A stretch of 31,898 nucleotides of DNA from a virus. The position numbers and the translations under genes were made by a program. The notes beneath the pieces are model-generated. The model was not told where the DNA came from. It searched no databases and saw nothing but the letters and a program-made list of their open reading frames with translations. Shown here piece by piece: positions 6,753 to 31,511 of the stretch. Each line of letters opens with the position of its first letter. Position 1 is the stretch's first letter. Location: positions 1-31,898 of IMG/VR virus record IMGVR_UViG_3300042691_001806; one strand, given 5' to 3'.

Positions 6753-7642
6753 TGCGTCAGCCCAGCACCAGGGAATGATCCAAACGGTAGTTCAGCTGTT
6801 GCGCCAAACCGTAGCTTGCAGGAGCTGAGTCGTTTTCCGCATCGATCTGCGCCTGCAGTAGCAACCGGTTCATCTTTTGCATTCCAGTAGTTGGTGCCGG
6901 TATAGCTGCATTCTGCTGAACGGTATTGCCATTGGCAGATGTTGGCGATGATCTGCCGCTTTGGCATCAACACACCAGCAAGATCAAACTTGCTGGCCAG
7001 TTCCCATTGAATTGCGTCGCGGTTTTCGCTGGCTTTGCGGTCGATGTACCAGACCTCATCGGGAAACTTGGCATTGACATCAGCGCCGGGTTCACCATCA
7101 AGGAATTTGCGTAACGTACGGATGCGACGCACCACGGCACCACCGAGGTCATTGCCGGTGGTGAAGGCGTTGACGGTCAGCAGCAAGGCGCTGATTTCAC
7201 CGCCGAGGTTGGCGACGGTCAACGTCGGTCTAGGCAGGGTGCCGCCATTGCTGTACTCAAAGCCTTCAGCCTTGATCGGCAGGCGGATGTAGGTATTGTT
7301 GTTCCAGATGATGTTGCCGCTGACGGCTGCATTGGCGCCGGCATGGAAGTAGTAGGTATCGCTGCTGCCGTGCAGTGCAGCATCCAGCGTCAGCTCAAAC
7401 AACTCGATGATGGCATTGGGTGCCAACACCGCCAGTTCTTCGTAGACGCTGCTGATCGCCTGCCATGTGACGCCACCATCGGTGATGGTGCTGCCGATGT
7501 CGGTCGGCCATGCAGGTTGTGTGCTGCCGGTGGTGCCGGCAACAGTGCAGCGAAACACAAGACCGCTGGCCTGCAGGGTGGTGGCAGCACGGATGTCACC
7601 GACGACCTGCGCGGTGGTGGCGGTCCAGGCAGCGAAGCTCAT
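6749..7642 (-). CDS. Minor tail protein, lambda gpL-like, with an N-terminal carbohydrate-binding-like module (297 aa)
   Basis: From about residue 68 the protein follows the gpL family (VLAPNAIIELFELTLDAALHG, then NNNTYIRLPIKAEGFEYS). It ends with four cysteines arranged CQW...AECSY...DRCGKR...SCKLRFG. In lambda L such conserved cysteines bind an iron-sulphur cluster in the C-terminal domain. The first 65 residues are extra compared with lambda L. They show W at 6, a GDI turn, FRCTVAGTTGSTQPAWP and DGGVTWQA, the pattern of small chitin/carbohydrate-binding-like beta modules often attached to phage tail proteins. The gene overlaps its neighbours on both sides by ATGA, in M-L-K order. Confidence 0.88.
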   Translation of the reverse strand: MSFAAWTATTAQVVGDIRAATTLQASGLVFRCTVAGTTGSTQPAWPTDIGSTITDGGVTWQAISSVYEELAVLAPNAIIELFELTLDAALHGSSDTYYFHAGANAAVSGNIIWNNNTYIRLPIKAEGFEYSNGGTLPRPTLTVANLGGEISALLLTVNAFTTGNDLGGAVVRRIRTLRKFLDGEPGADVNAKFPDEVWYIDRKASENRDAIQWELASKFDLAGVLMPKRQIIANICQWQYRSAECSYTGTNYWNAKDEPVATAGADRCGKRLSSCKLRFGATAELPFGSFPGAGLTQ

Positions 7643-7983
7643 GGCTCGAAGACCTGCTCAAATACTGCCGACATGTTGGCGCGACCGGTGTAGGGGATCG
7701 TCTTGCTCCATTCGCGACAGATCCACTTGTATGACGTGCTGGTGTCTGGTGGTGTCCAGTCGAAGGACTCCTGCCCAGCGCGGGCATCAAGGAAGGTTTC
7801 AAGCGTATCAGCGTCAGCTTCGGTGATGTTCTGCCACGACAATGACCACGCCTTAGGGTTCTGGTTGAGGCCATAGACCAGCCGTTGCTCGTAGCCATCA
7901 CCGAACTTGACGCTACGCACTGCAGGTCGGCTGCGCTTCTCGGCGCCGTAGGACGGTGCTGGTGATGCGGGGAAGGTAGCCAT
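7639..7983 (-). CDS. Minor tail protein, lambda gpM-like (114 aa)
   Basis: The 114-aa length matches lambda gpM (about 109 aa). The family pattern is clear: SVKFGDGYEQRLVYGLN at about residues 24-40, then WSLSW, an acidic helix (ITEADADTLETFLDAR) and FDWTPPD. M-family proteins sit at the distal end of the tape measure and help to start the tail tip complex with H, L, K, I and J. The start ATG overlaps the tape-measure stop by one base (TGATG), so translation is probably coupled. Confidence 0.92.
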   Translation of the reverse strand: MATFPASPAPSYGAEKRSRPAVRSVKFGDGYEQRLVYGLNQNPKAWSLSWQNITEADADTLETFLDARAGQESFDWTPPDTSTSYKWICREWSKTIPYTGRANMSAVFEQVFEP

Positions 7984-10900
7984 CAGGCGAGCAGGCCTCC
8001 GGGGCGCTTCTGCTTGATCAATTCTGCCTGCACTGCAGCGGATACTGCCATGCCAAGCTGCTTGCCTTGTGCTTGATCACCGCTGACGCTGGAACCGCTG
8101 GCATCAACGTTGACGATGACGGTCGTGCCACCACCTCCGAGGTTGTGGTTAGGGATGATGGTGCCGCTACGACCAGGCATGAACAGCTCCGGGCCTTTCT
8201 CACCGACGATGTACGGCTGACCGCTGGAGACGCTACCGCCGTTAGCGCGGAACAATGGACCCAGCAGGCCGCCACCGGTGCCGGTGCCTGACATGGTGCC
8301 GAATAGCGCCATGTTGACGGCGATGTCTAGCAGCTTGTTGGCGATGCTGTTCAGCAGGTCAACAGCAACCTGCTGGAGGCTCTTGGTGCCATCGATGGCG
8401 CCTTGGATGGCATCAACGACGCCGGACTTGATCGACATGCCGATGTCGGCATAGACCTGCTTCAGTTGCTCGGCTGCATCGGCTTGCGCCTTGAGTGCTT
8501 TGGTCTTCGCCAACGTGGTGCGGATGTCAGCTTCGTTGAGGCCTGGGAATTGTGCTTTCAGATCGCGGATCTGCTGGTTGAGGATGACCTCAGCTTCGTT
8601 GCCATTAAGCCTGGCTTGCTGTAAGGCAAGCTCATCATTCAGCGCTTGGATGCCCTGAGCCTTCAGGTCAGCATCTTCCTTGCGGATGGTGTTGATATCG
8701 AACTCAAGCTGCCGGGCGGTTGTGGCGGCCTTGATTGCAAGCTGATCGAGCTCTGCCTTCTTCTGCGCTGCCGGCATCTCCTTATCAACCTTGAGCCGCT
8801 GCGCCTCGAAGGTGATCCGCAGTAGTTCTGCTTGCGCCTGACGGGTGATCTCCAGCTGACGGTTGCCGGAACCACGCGCCTCAAGGATGCGACCTTCGAC
8901 ATCAAACAATGCCCGCGCTTGCGATAGCTGCAGCTGTGATGTGGCGAGTGCTGCCTTGGCAGCTGCTGCCTTGCTGTCCCCGTCTTTGGCCTTGCCGCTC
9001 CCTGCACCGCCGACGGTGGGTGGTGGGGTGGTGTCGGTGGCTGGTGGTGGGGTGGTCGTCGCAGGCCTTGCTGCGCGGGTGGGGAGGGCGAGGACTGCTC
9101 GTGCCTTGCGCTCACGTTCTGAGAACAGCAGTTGCCGATTCATCACATCAGCCTGTGATGGTTGGCCAACTAGCGGGGAGAACGCACCTAGCGCTAATCG
9201 GGTTGCCTGTGCGCCCGGTTGGGCCATGCTTTCGCGTTCTGCCCGAATCTGAGCCAATGTCTTAGCCGCAGCTGCTTTCTGTTCTGCTGTTGCGCTACCA
9301 CCAAAGATGCGCGCCACACCACCGGATTCCCTTTCGCCTCGCAGTTTGTTGACTTCCTTGATCGTGGCGATCAAGTCAGCAGTACCAGAAACGATGATGT
9401 TGACGCCAACGGTGATGATGCCAATAGCGGCAAGCCCACGCAAAGCAGTCCCCAGCGCAGTGACCTGCGTCGCCGAGGCGGCTGATTGCGTCGCCAGTGC
9501 CTGGCTGTTGCGGGTATAGAGCGCAAATGCGCCTGAGCTTGCAGTAGCAGCCGTGCCGGTGGCCGCTGTTGATGCTGCCATCGCGGTGGTGGCTGCAACA
9601 TACGCTGCCCGCAAGGCAATCACAGCGTCAATGGCGCGCTTGACCAGCATCATCTGGATGCCGAACTTGATCAGCGTTCCGACTGCATCCATCACCGGTT
9701 GCGGGATGGAGCTCATCACATTGGCGAAACCATTAACGCTCTTGGTGATGTCTTGAATCGTGATGACAACCGTCGGGCCGAATGCCTTGGCTAGTGCTTC
9801 GCTCAAGTTGATGAATGATGTATCAAGCGCCTTGATTGTGTTTTCAAGGCTGCCCTTCATCGTTTGGAAGTCAGCATCGGTCTTGCCTGCTGCACCGCTG
9901 AGCTGCTCAAGCACCATCACGAAGTCCTTGCCGCCTTTGGCATTAGCGGCGAATGCACCACGCATCGCCTCCTGCGAACCCAGCAGCCGTGCAGTGGTCT
10001 CCTTGTCCTTCTGCATCGCCACCGCAAGCTGCGCCATGAGGCCCGTAAAGCCCTTGGCTTGGAGGCCGCCGTAGTTCCAGGCGATGCCGAGCTTCTTGGC
10101 GGCATCCTGGCTCTCCTTGGTCGGTTGCAGCAGGGTATTGAGCACTGCGCCGAGACCGGTGAAGGCAACTTCAGCCGTGGCGCCATTCTTGGTAGCCGAC
10201 GCGATGAACGCATTCATCTCGTTGATGCTCACGCCAGCCAATGACGTGGTTGACACCACACGACCTAGGAGGGATGTGTAGTCACTCCATTCTTGGTTGC
10301 CGAGTTCAACGGCTTTCGAGATGCTGTCGGTCACCTCAAACGCTCTGGTGCCTGACATGCCGTAGGCATTGAGTGTCTTGACCAGCACCTCCGTCACGGC
10401 TTGCGTATCTGCAAGACCACCGACCGCTGCTCGGGTTGCAGCATCAAGAATCTGGATGTTGCCTGCCGTATCAGCGAAACCTGCTGATGCCGCTTGATAC
10501 GATGCCGCCGCAAGATCAGCCTTGTTTGCAACACCACCGAGCTGATCACTCAGCTTTGATAATGCCGGGTTGATCTTCTCAATATCCATGCCGACCGTGC
10601 CAAGCCGGCGGATGTTGCGGTCGAGTTCGGTGGCATCACGAATGACGCGATCAACAGCAAAGCCGCCGGCTAATGCAAGACCGATTCCGGCGATGCGCTG
10701 CGTGAATCCATCCAGCTGTATACCCGCACGTTCTGCGACCTGTCCTTGATTGCGGATACCTGCTGCAGCTCGTTCTGCTGTCGTAAGGAGCCGACCATTC
10801 TCTGCCCGTGCGCGACCTGCGGCATCGGTGAAATACTTCATCCCGTTGGCGGCGGTCTGAAGTTCTCGGCCTTGCCTCGTTACAGCAGTAGTGGCGCCAT

Positions 10901-22926: not shown

Positions 22927-23377
22927 TATGGCCAGTCTTCGCCGTGATCCTCAGCAGCAAATCACGCTCCACATCAGGCGGAAGGTTGGCATCAGCAATC
23001 GCCGATACAGCAGCCTCGATGCCTTCCTGCTTGGCGCGATTGGCTGCCGCGGTGTCGCTGTAGTGCTCGCGGAATGCAGGCGAGTGCGTCAGCATCCAGG
23101 TGGATGCCTTCATGTCGCCATTCTCGGCTTGTTCGGCAATCTTGTTGATCAGCCGCATTCCGCCTTTGGCGCGTCCGGCCTCAATAGCCACAGAAAGGGC
23201 AACTTCTTCCGGCGTAGGATTGGGGCCTTTTGCGTTTAAAAGCCATTGCCTCATGGACTCATATGTAACACCAGCTGCCGGCGCAATATGTTCAAGAGGT
23301 GCGCCAAACTCAGCGAGAAAGCGCACCTTCTTGATCACATCGTCGTTTAGTTTGTAATGACGACGGGCTGGTTTCAC
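22910..23377 (-). CDS. terS: Terminase small subunit candidate (155 aa)
   Basis: The N-terminal 50 residues form a helix-turn-helix (DDVIKKVRFLAEFGAPLEHI, AAGVTYESMRQWLLNAK), the usual DNA-recognition part of small terminases. A central helical stretch (GGMRLINKIAEQAENGDMKA, STWMLTHSPAFREHYSD) is typical of the family's oligomerisation region, with the 'aaxWlLxhxP' phrase. It lies immediately before terL. Its start overlaps the sliding clamp stop by ATGA, so packaging and replication genes are translated together. Confidence 0.85.
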   Translation of the reverse strand: MKPARRHYKLNDDVIKKVRFLAEFGAPLEHIAPAAGVTYESMRQWLLNAKGPNPTPEEVALSVAIEAGRAKGGMRLINKIAEQAENGDMKASTWMLTHSPAFREHYSDTAAANRAKQEGIEAAVSAIADANLPPDVERDLLLRITAKTGHNASPS

Positions 23378-24435
23378 GCTCTGATCTGTACGGGCATCAC
23401 AAGATAGATGTTATCAGCTTCACCCGGTGGCGCAATCACAACCGGCGTGGTTGATGAATTGGCGGAGATTTCCACCGTATCACCCGCCAGGTGCTTGAGG
23501 CCATCAAGCAGGTAATGCACGTTAGCCGCCAGCTTGGGCATGGTGCCATCAGCCAACACCGCCTCAGAGCCGCTGCTGGCATCCGTCTCGGACTGGATCT
23601 TGATGATGCCATCAGCCATCTCCAGCTTGACGATGCCGTTATGGCTGTCAGCGATGACTGCGATCCGCTCCAGACCGTGAATCAAGGTCTGCCGATCGCA
23701 CGTTGCTGAATGCTTGAACGCTTCAGGCACCAGCGCCCTGGCGTTCGGGTACTTGCCATCGAGGATGGTGGAAAGCACTTGGGTGCCATCAGCAAGACCC
23801 AGCACCGCGTGACGGTTGTCGGTGGCGAGTGTTGCAGGTTGCCGCACCATGGCAAGCGCCTTGGCGGGAATCACCAGATCCATCTCAGCCGCTGCTGATG
23901 GGATGCTGCGCATCACGAGCCGATGGCCGTCGGTGGCCTCCATGCGGATGGTGTCACCATCGGCGGTGACGTGGATGCCGCAGAGGATCTGCTTTGACGC
24001 GTCGGTGCTGACGACCGGCAGCATGGCCGCCAGTGGCCCTGAGAGGTCGATGGGAGCGCCTGCAGCAGCATCCACCGCCGGAAGGTCGGGGAAGTCCTCT
24101 GCAGAGGCCACGGAGAGGCTGTAGGAGCCCGCTACGGCATCGATGGCGATGCGAGAGCCGTCAACGGTCAACGAGAGCGCCTCAGAGGCGTCCAGGCGGC
24201 TGATCAGGTCCGACAGCAGGCGATGCGGCACAACGGTGGCGCCGGGTGTGATGACGACAGCAGGAATCGATGCAGTGACGCCGGTGTCGAGGTCATAGGC
24301 ACGAACGCGGAGGTTGCCATCAGTGGCGGTGAGCTCCACGCCGGCGAGGATCGGATGGGTCTTGCCGCTGCCGACAGCGCGTGATGTAACGCGCAAGGCA
24401 TGGACAAGGTTTGATGCAGAAATTGTCAGCTTCAT
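23374..24435 (-). CDS. dnaN: Bacterial-type DNA polymerase III beta sliding clamp (353 aa)
   Basis: The sequence follows DnaN from end to end: MKLTISASNLVHALRVTSR, HPILAGVELTATDGNLRVRA at 27-46, PHRLLSDLISRLD, then a second domain with ATDGHRLVMRSIP around 160-175 and a third domain ending NIYLVMPVQIRA, like the host MPMRL-type terminus. The length of 353 aa is near the 366 aa of E. coli beta. Three-fold repeat structure is implied by three 'ATDGxRL'-like turns, the clearest at residues 37 and 165. A clamp encircles DNA and tethers polymerase. It starts by ATGA overlap with the 70-aa gene and ends by ATGA at terS. A phage-encoded clamp is uncommon in siphoviruses. Confidence 0.93.
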   Translation of the reverse strand: MKLTISASNLVHALRVTSRAVGSGKTHPILAGVELTATDGNLRVRAYDLDTGVTASIPAVVITPGATVVPHRLLSDLISRLDASEALSLTVDGSRIAIDAVAGSYSLSVASAEDFPDLPAVDAAAGAPIDLSGPLAAMLPVVSTDASKQILCGIHVTADGDTIRMEATDGHRLVMRSIPSAAAEMDLVIPAKALAMVRQPATLATDNRHAVLGLADGTQVLSTILDGKYPNARALVPEAFKHSATCDRQTLIHGLERIAVIADSHNGIVKLEMADGIIKIQSETDASSGSEAVLADGTMPKLAANVHYLLDGLKHLAGDTVEISANSSTTPVVIAPPGEADNIYLVMPVQIRA

Positions 24436-24644
24436 TGTGCTGCGGCTTCGGTGAGGGCGTTGATGATGTCGTCGTAATCAGCTTGGAAGGAGGCAACCAG
24501 CTCTGCCGGTATGGCAATCTGATCATCCTGTGCGTTGTCGCGGATGGCATTGGCATAGGCCTTGGCCATCTCCATGGCGTCATGCAGCCGATTGATCACC
24601 GGTTGCTGCTTGGCTGGAATGTTGATGAAGTCTGGTGATGACAT
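24432..24644 (-). CDS. Small helical protein upstream of the clamp (70 aa)
   Basis: ATG 24644 is preferred over the TTG at 24662 because it gives a normal start codon; no good ribosome site is visible for either. The 70-aa protein is mostly helical and acidic (QQPVINRLHDAMEMAKAYAN, LVASFQADYDDIINALTEAAA). It has no recognisable family. Its stop overlaps the clamp start (ATGA), and its start overlaps the RHH-like gene by 65 bases. Tight coupling to the clamp gene suggests a shared replication role, but this is inference from position only. Confidence 0.65.
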   Translation of the reverse strand: MSSPDFINIPAKQQPVINRLHDAMEMAKAYANAIRDNAQDDQIAIPAELVASFQADYDDIINALTEAAAQ

Positions 24645-24870
24645 AAGCCACGAGTGTTTCAACGTGCCGTTGGTTCAGATCATTGCGCATGAAGGCGCAG
24701 GCATCTGACACGAGGCGATGGTAATCGGCGGTCGAGATGCTGGCAACAGGAGCACTTAACACTCTGTCGCGAATGAGCGCCGAGCGGTTGGTGCCGAGCA
24801 TGACGGCCTGCTCATCGATGATCTGCAGGTCGACAAGCGACATACGGATCTTGACTTCTTGCTGAAGCAT
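24580..24870 (-). CDS. RHH-like DNA-binding protein next to the repeat array (96 aa)
   Basis: The first 45 residues match a ribbon-helix-helix fold: strand EVKIRMS, helix LVDLQIIDEQAVMLG, turn TNRSA, and helix ALIRDRVLSA. RHH dimers bind tandem or palindromic repeats with their strand. The rest is helical (ADYHRLVSDACAFMRNDLN, VETLVAYVITRLHQ). The start codon lies 13 bases downstream of the nearest TCGGACGCAA repeat (24884), so autoregulation or origin binding is a natural idea. No ribosome site is visible at the start. The RHH assignment is from pattern only; MobC-like or Arc-like proteins are alternatives. Confidence 0.7.
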   Translation of the reverse strand: MLQQEVKIRMSLVDLQIIDEQAVMLGTNRSALIRDRVLSAPVASISTADYHRLVSDACAFMRNDLNQRHVETLVAYVITRLHQHSSQAATGDQSAA

Positions 24871-25171
24871 GGGTTTGAGGGCTTCGGACGCAAAACCCTA
24901 GTCCACCACAGGCGTCGGACGCAAACTGGCCATTGTCGGACGCAAAAATCCCAGTCATACCAAGGGAGGACGCAAAATCGCCATTTTCCCTATCCCCCCC
25001 CTATGCGTTGCATGTGTATCACCCCGTACATAGACCCTCCCTGTTTTCTCATGTAGCGGTATATATCCCCTATTTGCGTCCGAACAGCTGAAAAGCCAGT
25101 CAGAGACAGGGAATTTGCGTCCGAAATTTGCGTCCGATTTGCGTCCGATCGGACGCTAGTTGCGTCCGACA
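24871..25171. other. Non-coding repeat-rich stretch, candidate replication origin
   Basis: These 301 bases hold no convincing gene. They contain eight exact 10-bp repeats (three left, five right, in opposite orientations), two degenerate copies and a 16-bp palindrome. A middle part of about 100 bases without repeats (24976-25073) carries a C-run and an AT-rich box (GGTATATATCCCC). They lie between the primase-helicase and the clamp/RHH genes, where replication starts in many plasmids and phages. A promoter for the clamp operon may also lie here, but no clear -10/-35 pair can be picked. Confidence 0.6.
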
Positions 25172-25245
25172 TCACGCCCAAGCGTCCAACTTGAGACCCA
25201 TCAAGAGACGATCGCGGCTCTTGCCGCCGCCTCTGTCGGACGCAA
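24884..25245. repeat. Iteron-like array of TCGGACGCAA / TTGCGTCCGA
   Basis: Exact copies as TCGGACGCAA: 24884, 24915, 24936 and 25236 (start positions). Exact copies in reverse as TTGCGTCCGA: 25074, 25115, 25128, 25139 and 25160. Near copies: 24966 (8 of 10) and 25149 (9 of 10). That is nine exact copies in 362 bases, when chance would give about 0.06 in the whole window on both strands. Left copies point one way and right copies the other, facing a repeat-free centre. Many spacings are close to whole turns of DNA (31, 21, 30, 11, 10, 11, 41). The copy at 25236 lies inside the primase 3' end. Confidence 0.9.
25141..25156. repeat. Perfect 16-bp palindrome in the right arm of the array
   Basis: GCGTCCGA is followed at once by its reverse complement TCGGACGC. 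It forms where a forward repeat (25139) and an almost perfect reverse copy (25149) meet head to head. A dimeric protein could bind it with two-fold symmetry, unlike the single direct repeats around it. Confidence 0.85.
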
Positions 25246-27547
25246 GTTTTGGGAAGATCTGCCGCAGCGCCGGCACCAGCAGCCGTGGCGCCTTGACCGT
25301 TCGATCAGCCGGTGGGTCCATCAACCACCGACCATTGTGATCTAAATAGCCTTCTTCTTTGTACCAGTTCTGTAATGCATCCCAGACGCGCTTGCAGGAC
25401 ACCTGCGCATCTTCATCCCATGTCAATCCGACGGCATCGCAGAAGTCCCATAGGTGACAAGATCCACGCCTGACATCTTGCATCGCTTGGTTGCCGGTGG
25501 CGTAGTCGATGCCATCCGACACGCTGAGCGCCATTCCTTCGAGGAGCCAATTCAGGAACGCAGGGCATATCTGCTCCTGGATGAAAGATGGATCATCCTT
25601 GAGCCTTGGATCAGCCTGTAGATGCGTCGGTTCAGTTGGTGTCGCCATGAAGGTCTTGCGAAACTTAAACACATGAAACCGGGTCTCGATAGCAGCCTGC
25701 TCACCGGTCAGCGATGGATCTTTGTTGAGGTTGAACACAAACAAAGCAGACGGCACAAACTGCGACTCCTGAACGCCCTTGAGCTCATAGGACAATTCCT
25801 CACCGCTGATTGCAGCCTTGAGTGATTGCAGGTTGTCGATGCTGACGAACTGTGAATTCTCGCTGGACCAGTTGACCGAGGCACCACGAAGCGGGGCGAT
25901 CGGAAACTTACGGCCTTGGTCGTACTGACGAAAATCAGCCAGGGTGCAGGAGGTGAAGTTACGGCTGCCGAGCGTGTCGCGCAGTGCTGTGCGGATGGTG
26001 TCCTTGCCGTTGCTGCCTTCACCGATCATCAGCACCGCACGAGGACGGCCTCGGGTGGCGCGGTACTTGGCGAGATCCAGACCGCTGCCGAGGATGCGCT
26101 GCAGGGTGTCGAGGTCGGTGTGCTCAACGGCATCAAGCAGTCGCCAGAGGTGTTGCCCGTTGGCGTCTGGGTTGTAGTCGTAGGCGGTGACGTAGGTGAA
26201 GGCAACAGCTGGATCATGCGGCGCGAGGGTCAGGTCAAGCTTCTTGCCAGCCCATGACCACGAGACGACACCATTGCGGCAGTTGATGGCATTGGATGGG
26301 TTGACGGTGACGGGACTGAGCAGGCGACGCATCCAGACGAGGGCCTCGTCGACGTAACGGGGACGACGCCATGGGTAGACGGGTTCACCGCTCTTGGTGT
26401 TCATGACGTGGAGGAGCGAGAGGAAGCTGGCGATCAACGGCGCCAGCTGCTCATCAGGCTTGGGTTCGTAGTGGGTGCCGACCCATAGGTGGAGGACGCC
26501 ATCAACGCAGATCCACCGCTGCTGCGGATGATGGAAGACGTGCTGAACCGTGAGATCCAGCCATTCGGTATCGGTCTTGTCGTAGAGCTGAAGCTTGATG
26601 GCATCAGGATCAGCGGCGGCATCCACCACCGACGCCCTTCGTCGCGGTGTAGGTGTTGCGGGCCTCCAGCCGTGATGCCGCGCCCAGTACCAGAAGGTGC
26701 CGGCGGTGATGTGATCACCACCTGAGGCTGCGATCTGCTCAAGGCCTTGCCATTGCGGGCTGTGCTGCTGCATCAGCTCGATGGCGAGGTCAACGCTGTT
26801 GCAGGCCTGGATCAAGCCCCAGAAGATATTGCGGTAGACGTGATAGGTGCCGCTGCCTGGTGTGCGTGGTGGTATGGCGGCGAGGGCATCACGGATGTCG
26901 TCGATGCTGCGCTCTGCTGGTTCGGTGTGATGCTGTGCTGGCTTCTGGTGTTGATAGAAGGCTTCAGACGGCAGGACCGCCTCGATGTCGGCAACGGTGT
27001 AGCGATGGCCGGCGCTGGTGACCATCTGACACGGATCGCCAAGGGTGCCATCAGCCATGGCGTAGTAGCTGCCGGGCAGCCGCATGACGCGTGAGGCGTT
27101 CTTGATGCTGCGGTCTGCATCGCAGTAGTCAAGCAGCCGTGCCTGCACCAACTCCCAGTGGGATGGTGTGATCGGATCGGTCAGTACCCAGTAGCTATGG
27201 ATGGACTTGCCGCCGGTGTTGATCTGAAAGGTGGGTTCAGGCAGCTTGAGTGACCGCCATGCGGTGAGCTGCCAATCACGGGGACGGTCGTCCCATTCGG
27301 CGAAGAAGGCACGGCAGGCGGTGATGTCGGCATTGGTGTCACCGCCGTCGTTGATGACGACGTAAACGCCGCGGCCTTCGGCTTGCCATTGCTCGATGAG
27401 CTTCTTGGAGGCGCCACCTTTGCGACCTTTGTCGGTGCCCTTGTCTGGGTGGTCGCGATGGAGGAAGGCACGAAGGCGGATAGCACCGGCGGGTTTGCCG
27501 AGGAGGGCGATGAACCGACGGGCTTCATCGAAGTCAATGGGCTTCAT
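25172..27547 (-). CDS. Primase-helicase: AEP-type primase plus superfamily 3 (D5-like) helicase (791 aa)
   Basis: The N-terminal 200 residues look like an archaeo-eukaryotic primase of the RepB/bifunctional type: acidic site FFAEWDD (81-87), QINTGGKSIHSYWVL with the catalytic-type His (108-122), and a third motif SRVMRLPGSYY (152-162). The C-terminal SF3 helicase has Walker A IGEGSNGKDT (508-517), Walker B NWSSEN (559-564), motif C ALFVFNLN (601-608) and an Arg-finger region ETRFHVFKF (621-629). Such proteins unwind and prime at origins in phages, plasmids and satellites. Its start overlaps the RHH gene (ATGA), and its 3' end and downstream flank carry the repeats. Length is normal for the D5 group. 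Confidence 0.9.
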   Translation of the reverse strand: MKPIDFDEARRFIALLGKPAGAIRLRAFLHRDHPDKGTDKGRKGGASKKLIEQWQAEGRGVYVVINDGGDTNADITACRAFFAEWDDRPRDWQLTAWRSLKLPEPTFQINTGGKSIHSYWVLTDPITPSHWELVQARLLDYCDADRSIKNASRVMRLPGSYYAMADGTLGDPCQMVTSAGHRYTVADIEAVLPSEAFYQHQKPAQHHTEPAERSIDDIRDALAAIPPRTPGSGTYHVYRNIFWGLIQACNSVDLAIELMQQHSPQWQGLEQIAASGGDHITAGTFWYWARHHGWRPATPTPRRRASVVDAAADPDAIKLQLYDKTDTEWLDLTVQHVFHHPQQRWICVDGVLHLWVGTHYEPKPDEQLAPLIASFLSLLHVMNTKSGEPVYPWRRPRYVDEALVWMRRLLSPVTVNPSNAINCRNGVVSWSWAGKKLDLTLAPHDPAVAFTYVTAYDYNPDANGQHLWRLLDAVEHTDLDTLQRILGSGLDLAKYRATRGRPRAVLMIGEGSNGKDTIRTALRDTLGSRNFTSCTLADFRQYDQGRKFPIAPLRGASVNWSSENSQFVSIDNLQSLKAAISGEELSYELKGVQESQFVPSALFVFNLNKDPSLTGEQAAIETRFHVFKFRKTFMATPTEPTHLQADPRLKDDPSFIQEQICPAFLNWLLEGMALSVSDGIDYATGNQAMQDVRRGSCHLWDFCDAVGLTWDEDAQVSCKRVWDALQNWYKEEGYLDHNGRWLMDPPADRTVKAPRLLVPALRQIFPKLASDRGGGKSRDRLLMGLKLDAWA

Positions 27548-27837: not shown

Positions 27838-27841
27838 ATGA
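27794..27841 (+). CDS. Possible 15-codon leader peptide overlapping the helicase start
   Basis: ATG 27794 opens a frame of 15 codons (MDWTQLPALPDREVG) that stops with TGA at 27839-27841, overlapping the helicase ATG at 27838 by ATGA. The overlap would allow coupled translation. The frame contains the helicase ribosome site. No ribosome site is seen for the leader itself. A chance frame of this length is quite possible. Confidence 0.25.
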   Translation: MDWTQLPALPDREVG

Positions 27842-29202
27842 GCTATCAGGAGTTTCTGAACCAGAAGACTCACGAAGGTGCCGCGCATGGCTTTGAGCCG
27901 GTGTGGATGCCGCCGCAGTTGTTTGACTTTCAGCAGTCTCTGGTGACGTGGGCGATCCGAAAGGGTCGGGCTGCGATCTTTGCGGATTGCGGGCTTGGCA
28001 AGACCGCCATGCAGCTGACATGGGCGGAGAACGTGGTACGACACACCGGGAAGCCGGTGCTGATTTTGACGCCGCTGGCCGTGGCGGCGCAGACCATCCG
28101 CGAGGGCGAAAAGTTCGGCATTGAGTGTCATCGTTCAAGCGATGGCAGCGTGACAGGTCGCATTGTGATCACCAACTACGAGCGCCTGGAACATTTCAAG
28201 CCAGCTGACTTCGCTGGTGTGGTGTGCGATGAGTCGAGCATTCTGAAGTCATTTGATGGCGCCCGCCGCAATGAGATCACCGACTTTATGCGCAAGGTGC
28301 CATACCGATTGCTGGCTACCGCCACGGCGGCACCCAATGACTTCATCGAGCTTGGCACCAGCTCCGAAGCCCTTGGCTACATGGGCCACATGGACATGCT
28401 TGCTCGTTTCTTCAAGAACGATCAGAGCAATTTGACCAGTCGGAGAATGTATGGCGAGGCGCCCAAATGGCGTTTCAAGGGTCATGCCGAGGTGCCGTTC
28501 TGGCAATGGGTCACCAGCTGGGCAAGGGCTTGCCGCAAGCCTTCAGACCTTGGATTTGATGATGGCCGGTTTGTGCTGCCAGCATTGACTGAAGCTGATC
28601 ATCTGATTGAAACCGACACGGTCCCCGATGGGATGCTGTTTGCCATTCCGGCAACAGACCTCAAAGAGCAACGTGCTGAAAAAAAGCGCACCATCCGCGA
28701 ACGTTGTGAGCAGGTTGCTGCCATGGTGTCAGGCACCGGTCAGCCTGCGCTGGTGTGGTGCCATTTGAATGAAGAAGGCAATTTGATGGAGCAATTGATC
28801 CCCGATGCCGTACAGGTTTCAGGGTCTGACCGTGATGACATCAAAGAGTCTCGATTGATTGACTTTGCGGAAGGTCGATCACGAGTGCTGATCACAAAAC
28901 CCAAGATTGGCGCCTGGGGATTGAACTTTCAAGTCTGCAACCACATCACCTATTTTCCGTCTCACAGCTTTGAGCAGTATTACCAGTCGGTGAGGCGCTG
29001 CTGGCGGTTTGGTCAAGAGCGACCGGTAACGGTTGACATCATCCTGACCGAAGGCGAGCGGCGAATCATGGACAACCTGCATCGCAAGCGCCAGCAAGCT
29101 GAGCAAATGTTCAGCAACCTTGTAGCCGAGATGAATCATTCGCTGGACATCCAGCGCAAAGAATACAACAACGCACCTATCGAGCTTCCATCATGGCTGT
29201 GA
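27838..29202 (+). CDS. SNF2/DEAD-like helicase (454 aa)
   Basis: Superfamily 2 motifs in order: a Q-like start (LFDFQQSLVTWAI, 29-40), Walker A DCGLGKT (50-56), motif Ia LILTPLAVA, Walker B-type CDESSIL (130-136), motif III ATATAAPND (160-168), motif V GAWGLNFQ (358-365) and motif VI QSVRRCWRFGQ (383-393). The 'HSFEQYYQSVRRCWRFGQ' ending is typical of SNF2-type phage helicases often encoded beside a methyltransferase. It would move on or remodel double-stranded DNA. Ribosome site GGAGG lies four bases before the ATG. It overlaps the methyltransferase by 10 bases, so it is in the same operon. Confidence 0.88.
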   Translation: MSYQEFLNQKTHEGAAHGFEPVWMPPQLFDFQQSLVTWAIRKGRAAIFADCGLGKTAMQLTWAENVVRHTGKPVLILTPLAVAAQTIREGEKFGIECHRSSDGSVTGRIVITNYERLEHFKPADFAGVVCDESSILKSFDGARRNEITDFMRKVPYRLLATATAAPNDFIELGTSSEALGYMGHMDMLARFFKNDQSNLTSRRMYGEAPKWRFKGHAEVPFWQWVTSWARACRKPSDLGFDDGRFVLPALTEADHLIETDTVPDGMLFAIPATDLKEQRAEKKRTIRERCEQVAAMVSGTGQPALVWCHLNEEGNLMEQLIPDAVQVSGSDRDDIKESRLIDFAEGRSRVLITKPKIGAWGLNFQVCNHITYFPSHSFEQYYQSVRRCWRFGQERPVTVDIILTEGERRIMDNLHRKRQQAEQMFSNLVAEMNHSLDIQRKEYNNAPIELPSWL

Positions 29203-30155
29203 TCACTGACCGTTACGCAATCTACAACGGCGACTGCATCGAAGTGATGCAAGGACTACCCAGCGAATCGATCCATTTCTCGATCTATTCACCTCCGTTC
29301 GCTGGCTTGTATGTCTATAGCTCAAACGAGCGTGACATTAGCAACTGTAAAGACTATGACCAGTTCATGGTGCATTATGGCTATGTGGTAAAAGAACTGC
29401 ACCGGCTGACGCTACCGGGAAGGCTGACGGCTGTGCATTGCACCGACATTCCAACGGGGAATAGTGGTCAGGATGCATTGCTGGATTTGCCTGGCAAGAT
29501 TATCGAGCTGCATCAGCAACATGGCTGGCATTATGTGGCGCGGCATACGATCTGGAAAGAACCTCTATGGGTTCGCAACCGGACGATGGTCAAGAATCTG
29601 GCCCATAAGACCATTGTCGATGATGCTGCGTATGCCGGTGTTGCGAGTGCTGATTATCTGTTGATTTTCCGCCGCAGTGGCTCCAATACAGTGCCGATCG
29701 CCAATCCTACCGGCCTTGATCACTACGCCGGAGAGTGTCCGATACCGCAGGATCTGCACAAGTACCGCAACTGGAAAGGCAAGCAAACCGAGAACCGCTT
29801 CAGCCATTGGATCTGGCGCCGGTATGCGTCATCTATTTGGGATGACATCACCATGGGACGAGTTCTTCCATTCCGCGATAGCAAGGATCCAGATGACGAG
29901 AAGCATGTGCATCCTTTACAGCTGGATGTGATTGATCGTGCTATCTGCCTTAGATCCAATCCTGGCGAGACGGTGCTGACTCCATTCATGGGCGTAGGCA
30001 GCGAGGTCTATGGCGCCGTGAATCTTGGTCGTCGTGGGATTGGCATTGAGTTGAAGGAGTCGTACTACAAGCAAGCCATCAAGAATATGGAGATTGCCGT
30101 AGAAGACACACGTCAACCGGATCAGGCGGCATTGATCAACCTTGATGAGTTTTGA
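29193..30155 (+). CDS. DNA methyltransferase, beta-class order, N4-cytosine or N6-adenine type (320 aa)
   Basis: Motif IV is SPPF at residues 33-36 (YSPPFAGLY), near the N-terminus. The AdoMet-binding motif I is TPFMGVGSEVYGA at 263-275, near the C-terminus, so the order is the beta class. HPLQLDVIDRAICLRSNPGE before it is the usual helix of this group. SPPx favours N4-cytosine methylation over the adenine DPPY/W, but the fourth residue F is unusual, so the base is uncertain. No separate target-recognition domain is obvious; the middle (110-240) would hold it. It is encoded between two helicases. It may protect phage DNA from host restriction or mark it for the neighbouring enzymes. Confidence 0.88.
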   Translation: MAVITDRYAIYNGDCIEVMQGLPSESIHFSIYSPPFAGLYVYSSNERDISNCKDYDQFMVHYGYVVKELHRLTLPGRLTAVHCTDIPTGNSGQDALLDLPGKIIELHQQHGWHYVARHTIWKEPLWVRNRTMVKNLAHKTIVDDAAYAGVASADYLLIFRRSGSNTVPIANPTGLDHYAGECPIPQDLHKYRNWKGKQTENRFSHWIWRRYASSIWDDITMGRVLPFRDSKDPDDEKHVHPLQLDVIDRAICLRSNPGETVLTPFMGVGSEVYGAVNLGRRGIGIELKESYYKQAIKNMEIAVEDTRQPDQAALINLDEF

Positions 30156-30158
30156 CCC

Positions 30159-31511
30159 ATGCAACTAAGACCCTACCAACAACAACTCATCACCGACATC
30201 CGCCTGCAGTATCAGATGGGCCGCCGGCGGGTGCTGGCGGTGCTCGCCACCGGTGGCGGGAAAACAGTCTGCTTCAGCTACATCGCCCAATCTGCTGCGC
30301 GCAAGGGTAACCGCGTCTGCATCCTGGTGCATCGCGCGGAGCTGCTGGAGCAGGCCAGCCGTAGCCTGAAGGCCATGTGCATCCCGCATGGCTTGATCCA
30401 GGCTGGACGCAGCATGAACCTGACCCATGCGGTGCAGGTGGCCAGCGTCGGCACTATTGCGCGAAGGCTGCATCTGCTGCCGCGTGATTTCTTCCAGCTG
30501 GTGGTCGTTGATGAGGCGCACCACACCACGGCAGGAACATGGTCGAAGGTGGTGGATCATTTCCACACGGCGCATCTGCTGGGTGTGACGGCAACACCGA
30601 TCAGAGGTGATGGCCGCGGCCTCGGCGAGCACTATGAGGTGATGGTGCAGGGTCCGACGGCGGCATGGCTGACGGACAACGGATTCCTGGCAAGAGCGCG
30701 GGTGTTGGCACCACCGGGCTTTGATGCGGCGGGACTGCGGAAGCGGATGGGTGACTACGACAGCAAGCAAGCCGAGCAGCGGGTGAAGCAGATCCATGGT
30801 GATGTCTTCAGCCATTACTGCAGGCACCTGAGCAACCAGACGGCGATTGCGTTCTGCTGCAGCGTGGCTCATGCGGAGGCGGTAGCGGATCTGTTCCAGC
30901 GGCAGGGTGTTGCTGCTGCAAGCATTGATGGCACGATGGACAGCCCAACGCGACGGGGGCTACTGGAGGACCTGGGCACCGGCAGGCTGAAGGTGCTGAC
31001 CAGCTGTGCGCTGATCGGTGAGGGGGTGGATGTGCCGAGTGTCGGAGGATGCATCATGCTGCGACCAACGGCATCCGTGGGGCTGCATCTGCAGATGATC
31101 GGTCGATGCCTGAGGCCCAGCGGCGACAAGGTGGCGGTGGTACTCGACCATGTGGGAAATACGTTGAACCTCGGCCACCACCTGGAGGATCGCGAGTGGA
31201 GCCTGGATGGTGTGAAGAAACGCGACCGTGAGGCAGCGCCATCGGTGAAGGTGTGCCCGGTGTGCTTTGCGGCGAACCCAGCCAATGCGCAGGTCTGCGT
31301 GGAGTGCCGGCATGAGTTCCGGCCTGAGGTGCGTGAGCTGCAGGTGGTACCGGGTGAGTTGCGGGAGCTGCAGATGCGTGCCCGCAAGCGCGAGCAAGGC
31401 AATGCCACCGACCTGGAGTCATTGCGCGAGCTGGCCCGGCAACGTGGCTACAAGGCAGGATGGGCAGAACGCGTCCACCAGGCGCGGCTTGCGAAGCGGC
31501 ATGGCATCTGA
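30159..31511 (+). CDS. DEAH-type helicase with C-terminal zinc ribbon (450 aa)
   Basis: Motifs: RPYQQ (4-8), Walker A ATGGGKT (30-36), DEAH (118-121), TAT (144-146), GEGVDVP (287-293) and QMIGRCLRP (312-320), an SSL2/XPB-like set. After the helicase core, four cysteines CPVC...CVEC (366, 369, 380, 383) form a zinc ribbon. The end is a basic helical tail (MRARKREQG, LARQRGYKAGW). Phage helicases of this type act in replication, recombination or fork remodelling. The gene follows the methyltransferase after three bases and overlaps the nuclease by 11, so all four genes are one transcription unit. All motif residues look intact. Confidence 0.9.
   Translation: MQLRPYQQQLITDIRLQYQMGRRRVLAVLATGGGKTVCFSYIAQSAARKGNRVCILVHRAELLEQASRSLKAMCIPHGLIQAGRSMNLTHAVQVASVGTIARRLHLLPRDFFQLVVVDEAHHTTAGTWSKVVDHFHTAHLLGVTATPIRGDGRGLGEHYEVMVQGPTAAWLTDNGFLARARVLAPPGFDAAGLRKRMGDYDSKQAEQRVKQIHGDVFSHYCRHLSNQTAIAFCCSVAHAEAVADLFQRQGVAAASIDGTMDSPTRRGLLEDLGTGRLKVLTSCALIGEGVDVPSVGGCIMLRPTASVGLHLQMIGRCLRPSGDKVAVVLDHVGNTLNLGHHLEDREWSLDGVKKRDREAAPSVKVCPVCFAANPANAQVCVECRHEFRPEVRELQVVPGELRELQMRARKREQGNATDLESLRELARQRGYKAGWAERVHQARLAKRHGI

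Follow-up and report, generated by a model that had tools for sequence, protein, structure and literature searches.

Genes at the locus

The window, as we call the whole stretch of DNA analysed here, is the 31,898-nt IMG/VR record IMGVR_UViG_3300042691_001806, read on one strand. It carries its own portal, terminase, capsid and tail genes, and is a fragment of a tailed phage. A cluster of short repeats (iterons) lies directly 3′ of the stop codon of a primase-helicase gene and spans the interval from the last primase codons to near the start of a ribbon-helix-helix (RHH)-like gene, both in the window and in its relatives (Table 1). Continuing past this array along the minus strand, the gene order is RHH-like gene, sliding clamp, terminase subunits and portal. 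Domain and PHROG matches bear out the flanking genes named in an initial annotation of this DNA, namely a primase-SF3 helicase on one side and an RHH-like gene followed by a sliding clamp on the other.

The primase-helicase, our proposed initiator (called the initiator below), contains D5_N and DUF5906 domains and has PHROG primase/helicase matches, while its N-terminus matches the AEP PrimPol structure of cyanophage S-2L (PDB 6zp9, E 4.5e-36). The closest named relative is S-2L when judged by the AEP domain and Synechococcus phage S-H1 when judged by the clamp and RHH genes, and since these are the nearest relatives we infer a cyanobacterial host. At the right end of the window (27838-31511), two SF2-type helicases and an N6/N4 DNA methyltransferase are encoded on the plus strand, divergent from the primase. 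An 87-aa ORF at 24320-24583 is probably not a gene; it lies across the clamp start in a different frame and has matches to parts of certain relatives.

Table 1. Coordinates of the repeat array and its neighbouring genes in the window.
Feature	Position	Strand	Remarks
Sliding clamp (DNA polymerase III beta) gene	23374..24435	-	
Ribbon-helix-helix-like gene	24580..24870	-	NikA-like, below Pfam cut-off; not likely the word reader
Two-armed iteron array	24884..25245	.	candidate replication origin; last site within primase gene
Iteron, left arm, exact	24884..24893	-	TCGGACGCAA; column kept in relatives
Iteron, left arm, exact	24915..24924	-	TCGGACGCAA; column kept in relatives
Iteron, left arm, exact	24936..24945	-	TCGGACGCAA; column kept in relatives
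Iteron, left arm, innermost, degenerate	24966..24975	-	GAGGACGCAA; 2 mismatches to the 10-bp word; core GGACGCAA intact, in nearly all relatives
Repeat-free centre, 98 bp	24976..25073	.	probable melting region
Iteron, right arm, innermost, exact	25074..25083	+	TTGCGTCCGA; column kept in relatives
Iteron, right arm, exact	25115..25124	+	TTGCGTCCGA; column kept in relatives
Iteron, right arm, exact	25128..25137	+	TTGCGTCCGA; column kept in relatives
Iteron, right arm, exact	25139..25148	+	TTGCGTCCGA; column kept in relatives
Degenerate iteron, opposite orientation	25149..25158	-	TCGGACGCTA; many relatives have an intact 9-bp site here
Iteron, right arm, outermost intergenic copy, exact	25160..25169	+	TTGCGTCCGA; column kept in relatives
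PrimPol (AEP)-D5_N-DUF5906 SF3-type primase-helicase, 791 aa	25172..27547	-	predicted C-terminal winged helix; proposed initiator
Coding part, predicted C-terminal RFX-like winged-helix domain (residues 690-791)	25175..25480	-	proposed iteron reader
Iteron inside primase gene, exact	25236..25245	-	TCGGACGCAA; codons L768-A-S-D771, start of predicted wing; nucleotide-level conservation

Layout of the repeat array

All nine exact copies of the 10-bp word that the initial annotation had counted within 362 bp are present where it placed them, including the ninth, which lies within the last 75 bases of the primase gene. No tenth exact copy of TTGCGTCCGA or TCGGACGCAA was found in the whole 31.9-kb record, and in 100 Markov-1 simulations of the window the most frequent 10-mer in 362 bp never exceeded 3 copies, against the 9 observed. 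The array comprises 11 sites once two degenerate sites, both conserved in relatives, are added. Four sites lie to the left of the centre and six to the right, and the plan is the same in relatives. As had been claimed, the layout differs from simple direct-repeat iterons, the arms being inverted in the window and in its relatives. The two-armed layout does have a precedent, as SaPI/PICI origins organised in this way are already in print (PMC6092414).

Other details of the layout needed adjustment. The repeat-free centre, put earlier at about 100 bases, measures 98 bp, with its left bound now set by the degenerate site that precedes it. The AT-rich box described within it is slight: positions 24981-25073 have 49% GC against 55% for the whole array. 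Several relatives have a centre richer in AT, with locus L043 reaching 85% AT across 40 bp. Start-to-start spacings are 31, 21 and 30 in the left arm and 41, 13, 11, 10 and 11 in the right, so that the series quoted earlier (31, 21, 30, 11, 10, 11) is obtained only when the degenerate sites are counted. Support for the sites sharing one face of the helix is marginal: the left arm has a resultant of 0.98, where the 95% limit for random spacing is 0.95, and the right arm one of 0.86 (limit 0.89).

Conservation of the array in relatives

The initiator or a relative of it is encoded at 60 IMG/VR loci. Most of the comparisons involve metagenomic contigs, many of which are close to each other, so that locus counts are not counts of independent events. 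An array is present in all tested loci whose contig includes the 3′ side of the initiator gene, and its word is lineage-specific (TCGGACGCAA, GCGGACGCAA or, in L046/L050, CGAAGGCAAA). A comparison of this interval among related phages, as proposed in the initial annotation, revealed positionally fixed sites in relatives of 67-100% protein identity. Positions relative to the stop codon hardly vary in the TCGGACGCAA and GCGGACGCAA groups: one site falls at -71 to -59, four to seven follow up to about +98, and past a gap of about 90-106 bp come another four or five, spread over about +190 to +290. When 24 relatives were aligned, mean identity was 97% in the iteron columns (70 of 88 invariant) and 73% in the other intergenic columns (23 of 193 invariant). 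The last letter of the word is mixed within some arrays, for example that of L043.

In near-complete relatives of 40-44 kb that use the window's word, exact copies are confined to the array. In four of these records the two ends overlap exactly by 60-127 bp, suggesting completeness. A search with the initiator alignment against one genome each of 84,980 bacterial and archaeal species gave no match. At L057 (6001-8382) the initiator frame ends early, 353 aa from the start of the match, perhaps through a sequencing error or frameshift.

The pattern of conservation bears on whether the PrimPol-SF3 protein might recognise a DNA structure rather than the iteron sequence. The pRN1 plasmid carries a 100-nt stem-loop without iterons 3′ of the gene, and both pRN1 and BIP-1 have been proposed to use stem-loops in this position (PMC4234260). 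Their proteins belong to the same class as the initiator described here, and the inverted arms of the array are complementary and are paired in the consensus fold. That fold gave no independent support for a stem or for pairing of the arms, however. Moreover, the core letters are invariant at each site, and not merely complementary; the few double changes mainly fall on the word's final letter, which is altered throughout the array together; and many sites are in direct orientation within an arm. A pRN1-type stem-loop origin is thus very unlikely.

Which protein reads the repeats

The initial annotation had suggested testing both flanking proteins for binding to the repeats. RHH proteins often bind repeated short sites, and the gene adjoining the array has an RHH-like fold by sequence, so it could be imagined to read the words as an operator or centromere. 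Contrary to this, the array and its word are present in L003/L004, which have no RHH gene, and in L043/L045/L055, which have neither RHH nor clamp. The RHH gene, for which the search gave 291 loci, also follows three unrelated initiators. Type A is the window's PrimPol-D5 protein, type B a Zn-ribbon/Toprim primase of the kind present in S-H1, and type C a Prim-Pol-PriCT2-VapE protein. Each type has its own repeat family on a broadly similar two-armed plan, strong for types A and B (best 8-mer in 8-12 copies, against at most 6 in shuffles) and weak for type C (6-8 copies against 5-6). The RHH proteins of L011, L098, L099 and L086, which together span all three initiator types, are 97-99% identical although they sit beside unrelated words. 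Conversely, the DNA-reading strand of the RHH protein differs between the window (EVKIRMS) and L007/L011 (EIKINVT) while the word does not. The RHH protein was rejected as word reader on its presence and absence and on its near-identity across different words, and we consider such a role highly improbable.

At the place occupied in other loci by the RHH and clamp genes, L043 has a DNA-methyltransferase-like gene (7296-8483), and the array plan in front of it is unchanged.

Exchange of the initiator and array as a unit

Further comparisons come from closely related genomes with different initiators. For kilobases on either side of the initiator-array segment, L093 (type A) and L116 (type C) share 93-95% identity, but they show no similarity from the start codon of a divergent 752-aa ORF to the start codon of the RHH gene. 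The same pattern is seen between L083 and L073, with flanks 92-93% identical, and between L093 and L133 (type B), with flanks 88% identical. The initiator is the only evident gene in the exchanged segment, and as the word changes with that segment it is most simply read by the initiator. That gene and array are swapped together as one unit indicates that they form a matched pair. Taken with the evidence from the RHH gene, the best reading of these sequence comparisons is that the adjacent PrimPol-D5/SF3 initiator, and not the RHH protein, would be the reader of the word.

Two further functions for the array were weighed against these exchanges. Terminase genes lie 1.5-3 kb away, and the exact terminal overlaps of some relatives suggest circularly permuted maps, both in keeping with a packaging (pac) site recognised by terminase. 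Such a site should track the terminase, however, and the word instead varies with the initiator while the neighbouring operon remains 88-95% identical, which makes packaging an improbable explanation indeed. Alternatively, the array could serve mainly in transcription control of the RHH-clamp-terminase operon, possibly besides being an origin, with the initiator repressing or timing these genes. The array takes up all the intergenic DNA upstream of the RHH operon, and the exchanged cassette stops exactly at the RHH start codon. Against this, inverted arms, a fixed centre of about 100 bp and 11 sites over 362 bp exceed the needs of an operator, one site lies inside the initiator gene, and the array stays when the downstream genes differ (L003, L043). 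No sigma-70-like promoter was found in the array, although cyanobacterial promoters may be missed. We therefore regard transcription control as unlikely to be the main function. It is nevertheless quite possible that the array also acts in regulation, since the DNA upstream of both neighbouring genes, with their promoters, lies in the exchanged segment.

The boundaries of exchange fall exactly at the ATGs of the 752-aa ORF and the RHH gene (L093, 2893 and 5994; L116, 3473 and 5994; likewise in L133, L083 and L073). Exact recombination and trimming by selection are possible explanations for this precision.

The predicted C-terminal winged helix and the in-gene site

The C-terminal 102 residues of the initiator were modelled, with fair confidence, as a winged helix (pLDDT 81.4, pTM 0.77). 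Fold comparison was made with this domain only, the full-length model being poor (mean pLDDT 54.7). The best matches were RFX DNA-binding domains (1dp7, VIA Z 8.8, rmsd 2.0 over 75 residues; Foldseek E 0.016-0.05), followed by the C-terminal tail of AsfvPrimPol (Z 7.0), a PrimPol-helicase whose plan is similar to that of the initiator. RFX domains read DNA largely via the wing. Based on the model, the initiator C-terminus is predicted to be an RFX-like winged helix, and we propose it as the iteron reader. The AsfvPrimPol tail has itself been likened to the P4 origin-binding domain and to RFX1 (PMC10516667). The P4 domain was not among the fold matches listed for the C-terminal domain, which excludes nothing.

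Divergence between relatives also points to this region. L046 is about 67% identical overall and has a different word; its residues 751-791 are 27-37% identical while residues 481-630 are 87-100% identical, so the word change coincides with divergence largely confined to the C-terminal domain. L043, at 69% overall, keeps the same word, and its residues 751-791 are 73-80% identical.

The iteron inside the primase gene falls within the codons for the predicted wing's first strand and turn. The GCG and TCC codons in this iteron are identical in 22 of 22 sequences. Only 5 of the 212 invariant residues with at least fourfold-degenerate codons have monomorphic codons, and the GCG and TCC residues are two of these five. 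The in-gene site is thus conserved as DNA sequence, synonymous positions included. Initiators paired with the word TTGCGTCCGA have D or E at residue 771 and those paired with TTGCGTCCGC have A, a correspondence that is partly forced and is on its own no proof of readout by the wing, because the same bases encode the residue and form the site.

Tentatively, and at slightly less than even odds, we suggest that this phage lineage swaps whole initiator-origin cassettes, drawing on three or more unrelated initiator families but retaining a single two-armed plan, and that in the PrimPol-D5 family the site encoded in the wing codons ties changes in the word genetically to changes in its reader.

Comparison with known origins

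SaPI/PICI Rep-ori systems are the closest known kind. Their origins lie 3′ of rep and have an AT-rich stretch with an iteron set on each side (PMC6092414), and the initiators of SaPI, PICI and SCCmec have C-terminal origin-binding domains with iterons 3′ of the gene (PMC6092414, PMC7581432). As in SaPI/PICI, the present array is directly 3′ of the initiator gene, two iteron sets flank a central stretch, the word appears to be initiator-specific in that it follows initiator type and changes in natural swaps, and the C-terminal domain of the helicase (here a predicted winged helix) is the expected reader. Unlike them, it occurs not in a satellite island but in tailed phages that themselves encode capsid, terminase and portal, its initiator is a fused AEP PrimPol-D5 protein, one site lies in the initiator's wing codons, and its centre in the window is only weakly AT-rich. 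Because it sits in a tailed phage we do not file it as a PICI, though it apparently works like one.

Other systems share parts of this arrangement. P4 alpha joins primase, SF3 helicase and winged helix in one repeat-binding protein (PMC4234260), as the initiator is predicted to do, and a likeness to winged helices of the P4 class has been described for the AsfvPrimPol tail (PMC10516667). The P4 primase is of the Toprim type, however, whereas that of the initiator is AEP, and in contrast to P4 ori and crr all sites here fall in one two-armed cluster. The pRN1 ORF904 and BIP-1/BPP-1 systems share an AEP-SF3-winged helix protein with an origin element 3′ of its own gene, but the conserved element here is a sequence-conserved iteron set and that of pRN1 a stem-loop. 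In SCCmec, the C-terminal domain of the Cch2 helicase binds short iterons of a putative origin just 3′ of its gene (PMC7581432), a similar placing, although these are three 5-nt iterons in a 23-bp direct repeat with a separate primase, rather than 11 sites in inverted arms with a fused PrimPol. The inverted arms likewise set the array apart from classical RepA-type iteron plasmid origins, with direct iterons in one orientation beside an AT-rich region.

Among named phages, S-H1 has homologous RHH, clamp and small terminase genes, and its primase gene too is followed on the 3′ side by a two-armed array (10 copies, where shuffles gave at most 5). Its initiator is an unrelated Zn-ribbon/Toprim protein, its word is ACCGTTAG, and no origin is annotated in its record. 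In the regions 3′ of SF3-type primases, copy numbers did not exceed the shuffle maximum in Pumpkins (7 against 7) or Floof (7 against 8) and were marginal in Milly (9 against 7) and MaGuCo (10 against 8). In S-2L, the 360 bp after the PrimPol gene (L174, 10190-10550) contain several GTGCC/GGCAC words that may be a degenerate array (8 against a shuffle maximum of 11). The two-armed arrangement is thus not general, being without a clear counterpart in these other SF3-type primase phages.

A model for origin function

We propose, with a probability of roughly 0.86, that the array is the phage's replication origin and serves as a platform to which the neighbouring PrimPol-SF3 initiator binds. Origin function, suggested in the initial annotation, gains good comparative support from conservation of the sites, exchange of the array with its initiator and the predicted winged helix; positional conservation, joint exchange and a predicted winged-helix C-terminus are what would be expected of an initiator-bound origin. 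Against it, the centre is not strongly AT-rich in the window, and the GC-skew change sought at the array did not appear, no switch being seen in nine relatives of 40-44 kb. In these nine the TA-skew has an extreme within about 3 kb of the array, but it follows gene orientation.

By analogy with SaPI/PICI, SCCmec, P4 and pRN1, initiator copies would bind both inverted arms flanking the 98-bp centre through the C-terminal RFX-like winged helix and assemble face to face, probably as two facing hexamers. The SF3 motor could then melt the centre and unwind outward, giving bidirectional forks, with the AEP domain laying primers and host DNA polymerase III extending them together with the phage sliding clamp.

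A description of this origin was not found in the open-access literature. New features are the setting, in tailed, cyanophage-like phages whose initiator is a PrimPol-D5 protein, the in-gene site, and the exchange of cassettes among three initiator types. The model gives a concrete, testable pair of origin and initiator for widespread, little-studied phages related to S-H1, and would extend to full-size tailed phages a type of two-armed iteron origin that had been ascribed to satellite islands alone. The swapped cassettes in genomes that are 92-95% identical offer a natural experiment for matching words with their reader proteins and for learning how phages change replicons; the exchange may also bear on origin-based incompatibility of co-infecting phages.

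A further feature of the arrays concerns the DNA between the iterons. A terminator scan of the window found no terminators, and there was no Rfam match. Imperfect short hairpins such as AACCCAGTCGTGGACAGGGTT recur between iterons in the arrays of L011, L003, L099, L105 and L126 and at 24895-24965 of the window. They occur in more than one initiator type and might be primer-start or terminator elements.
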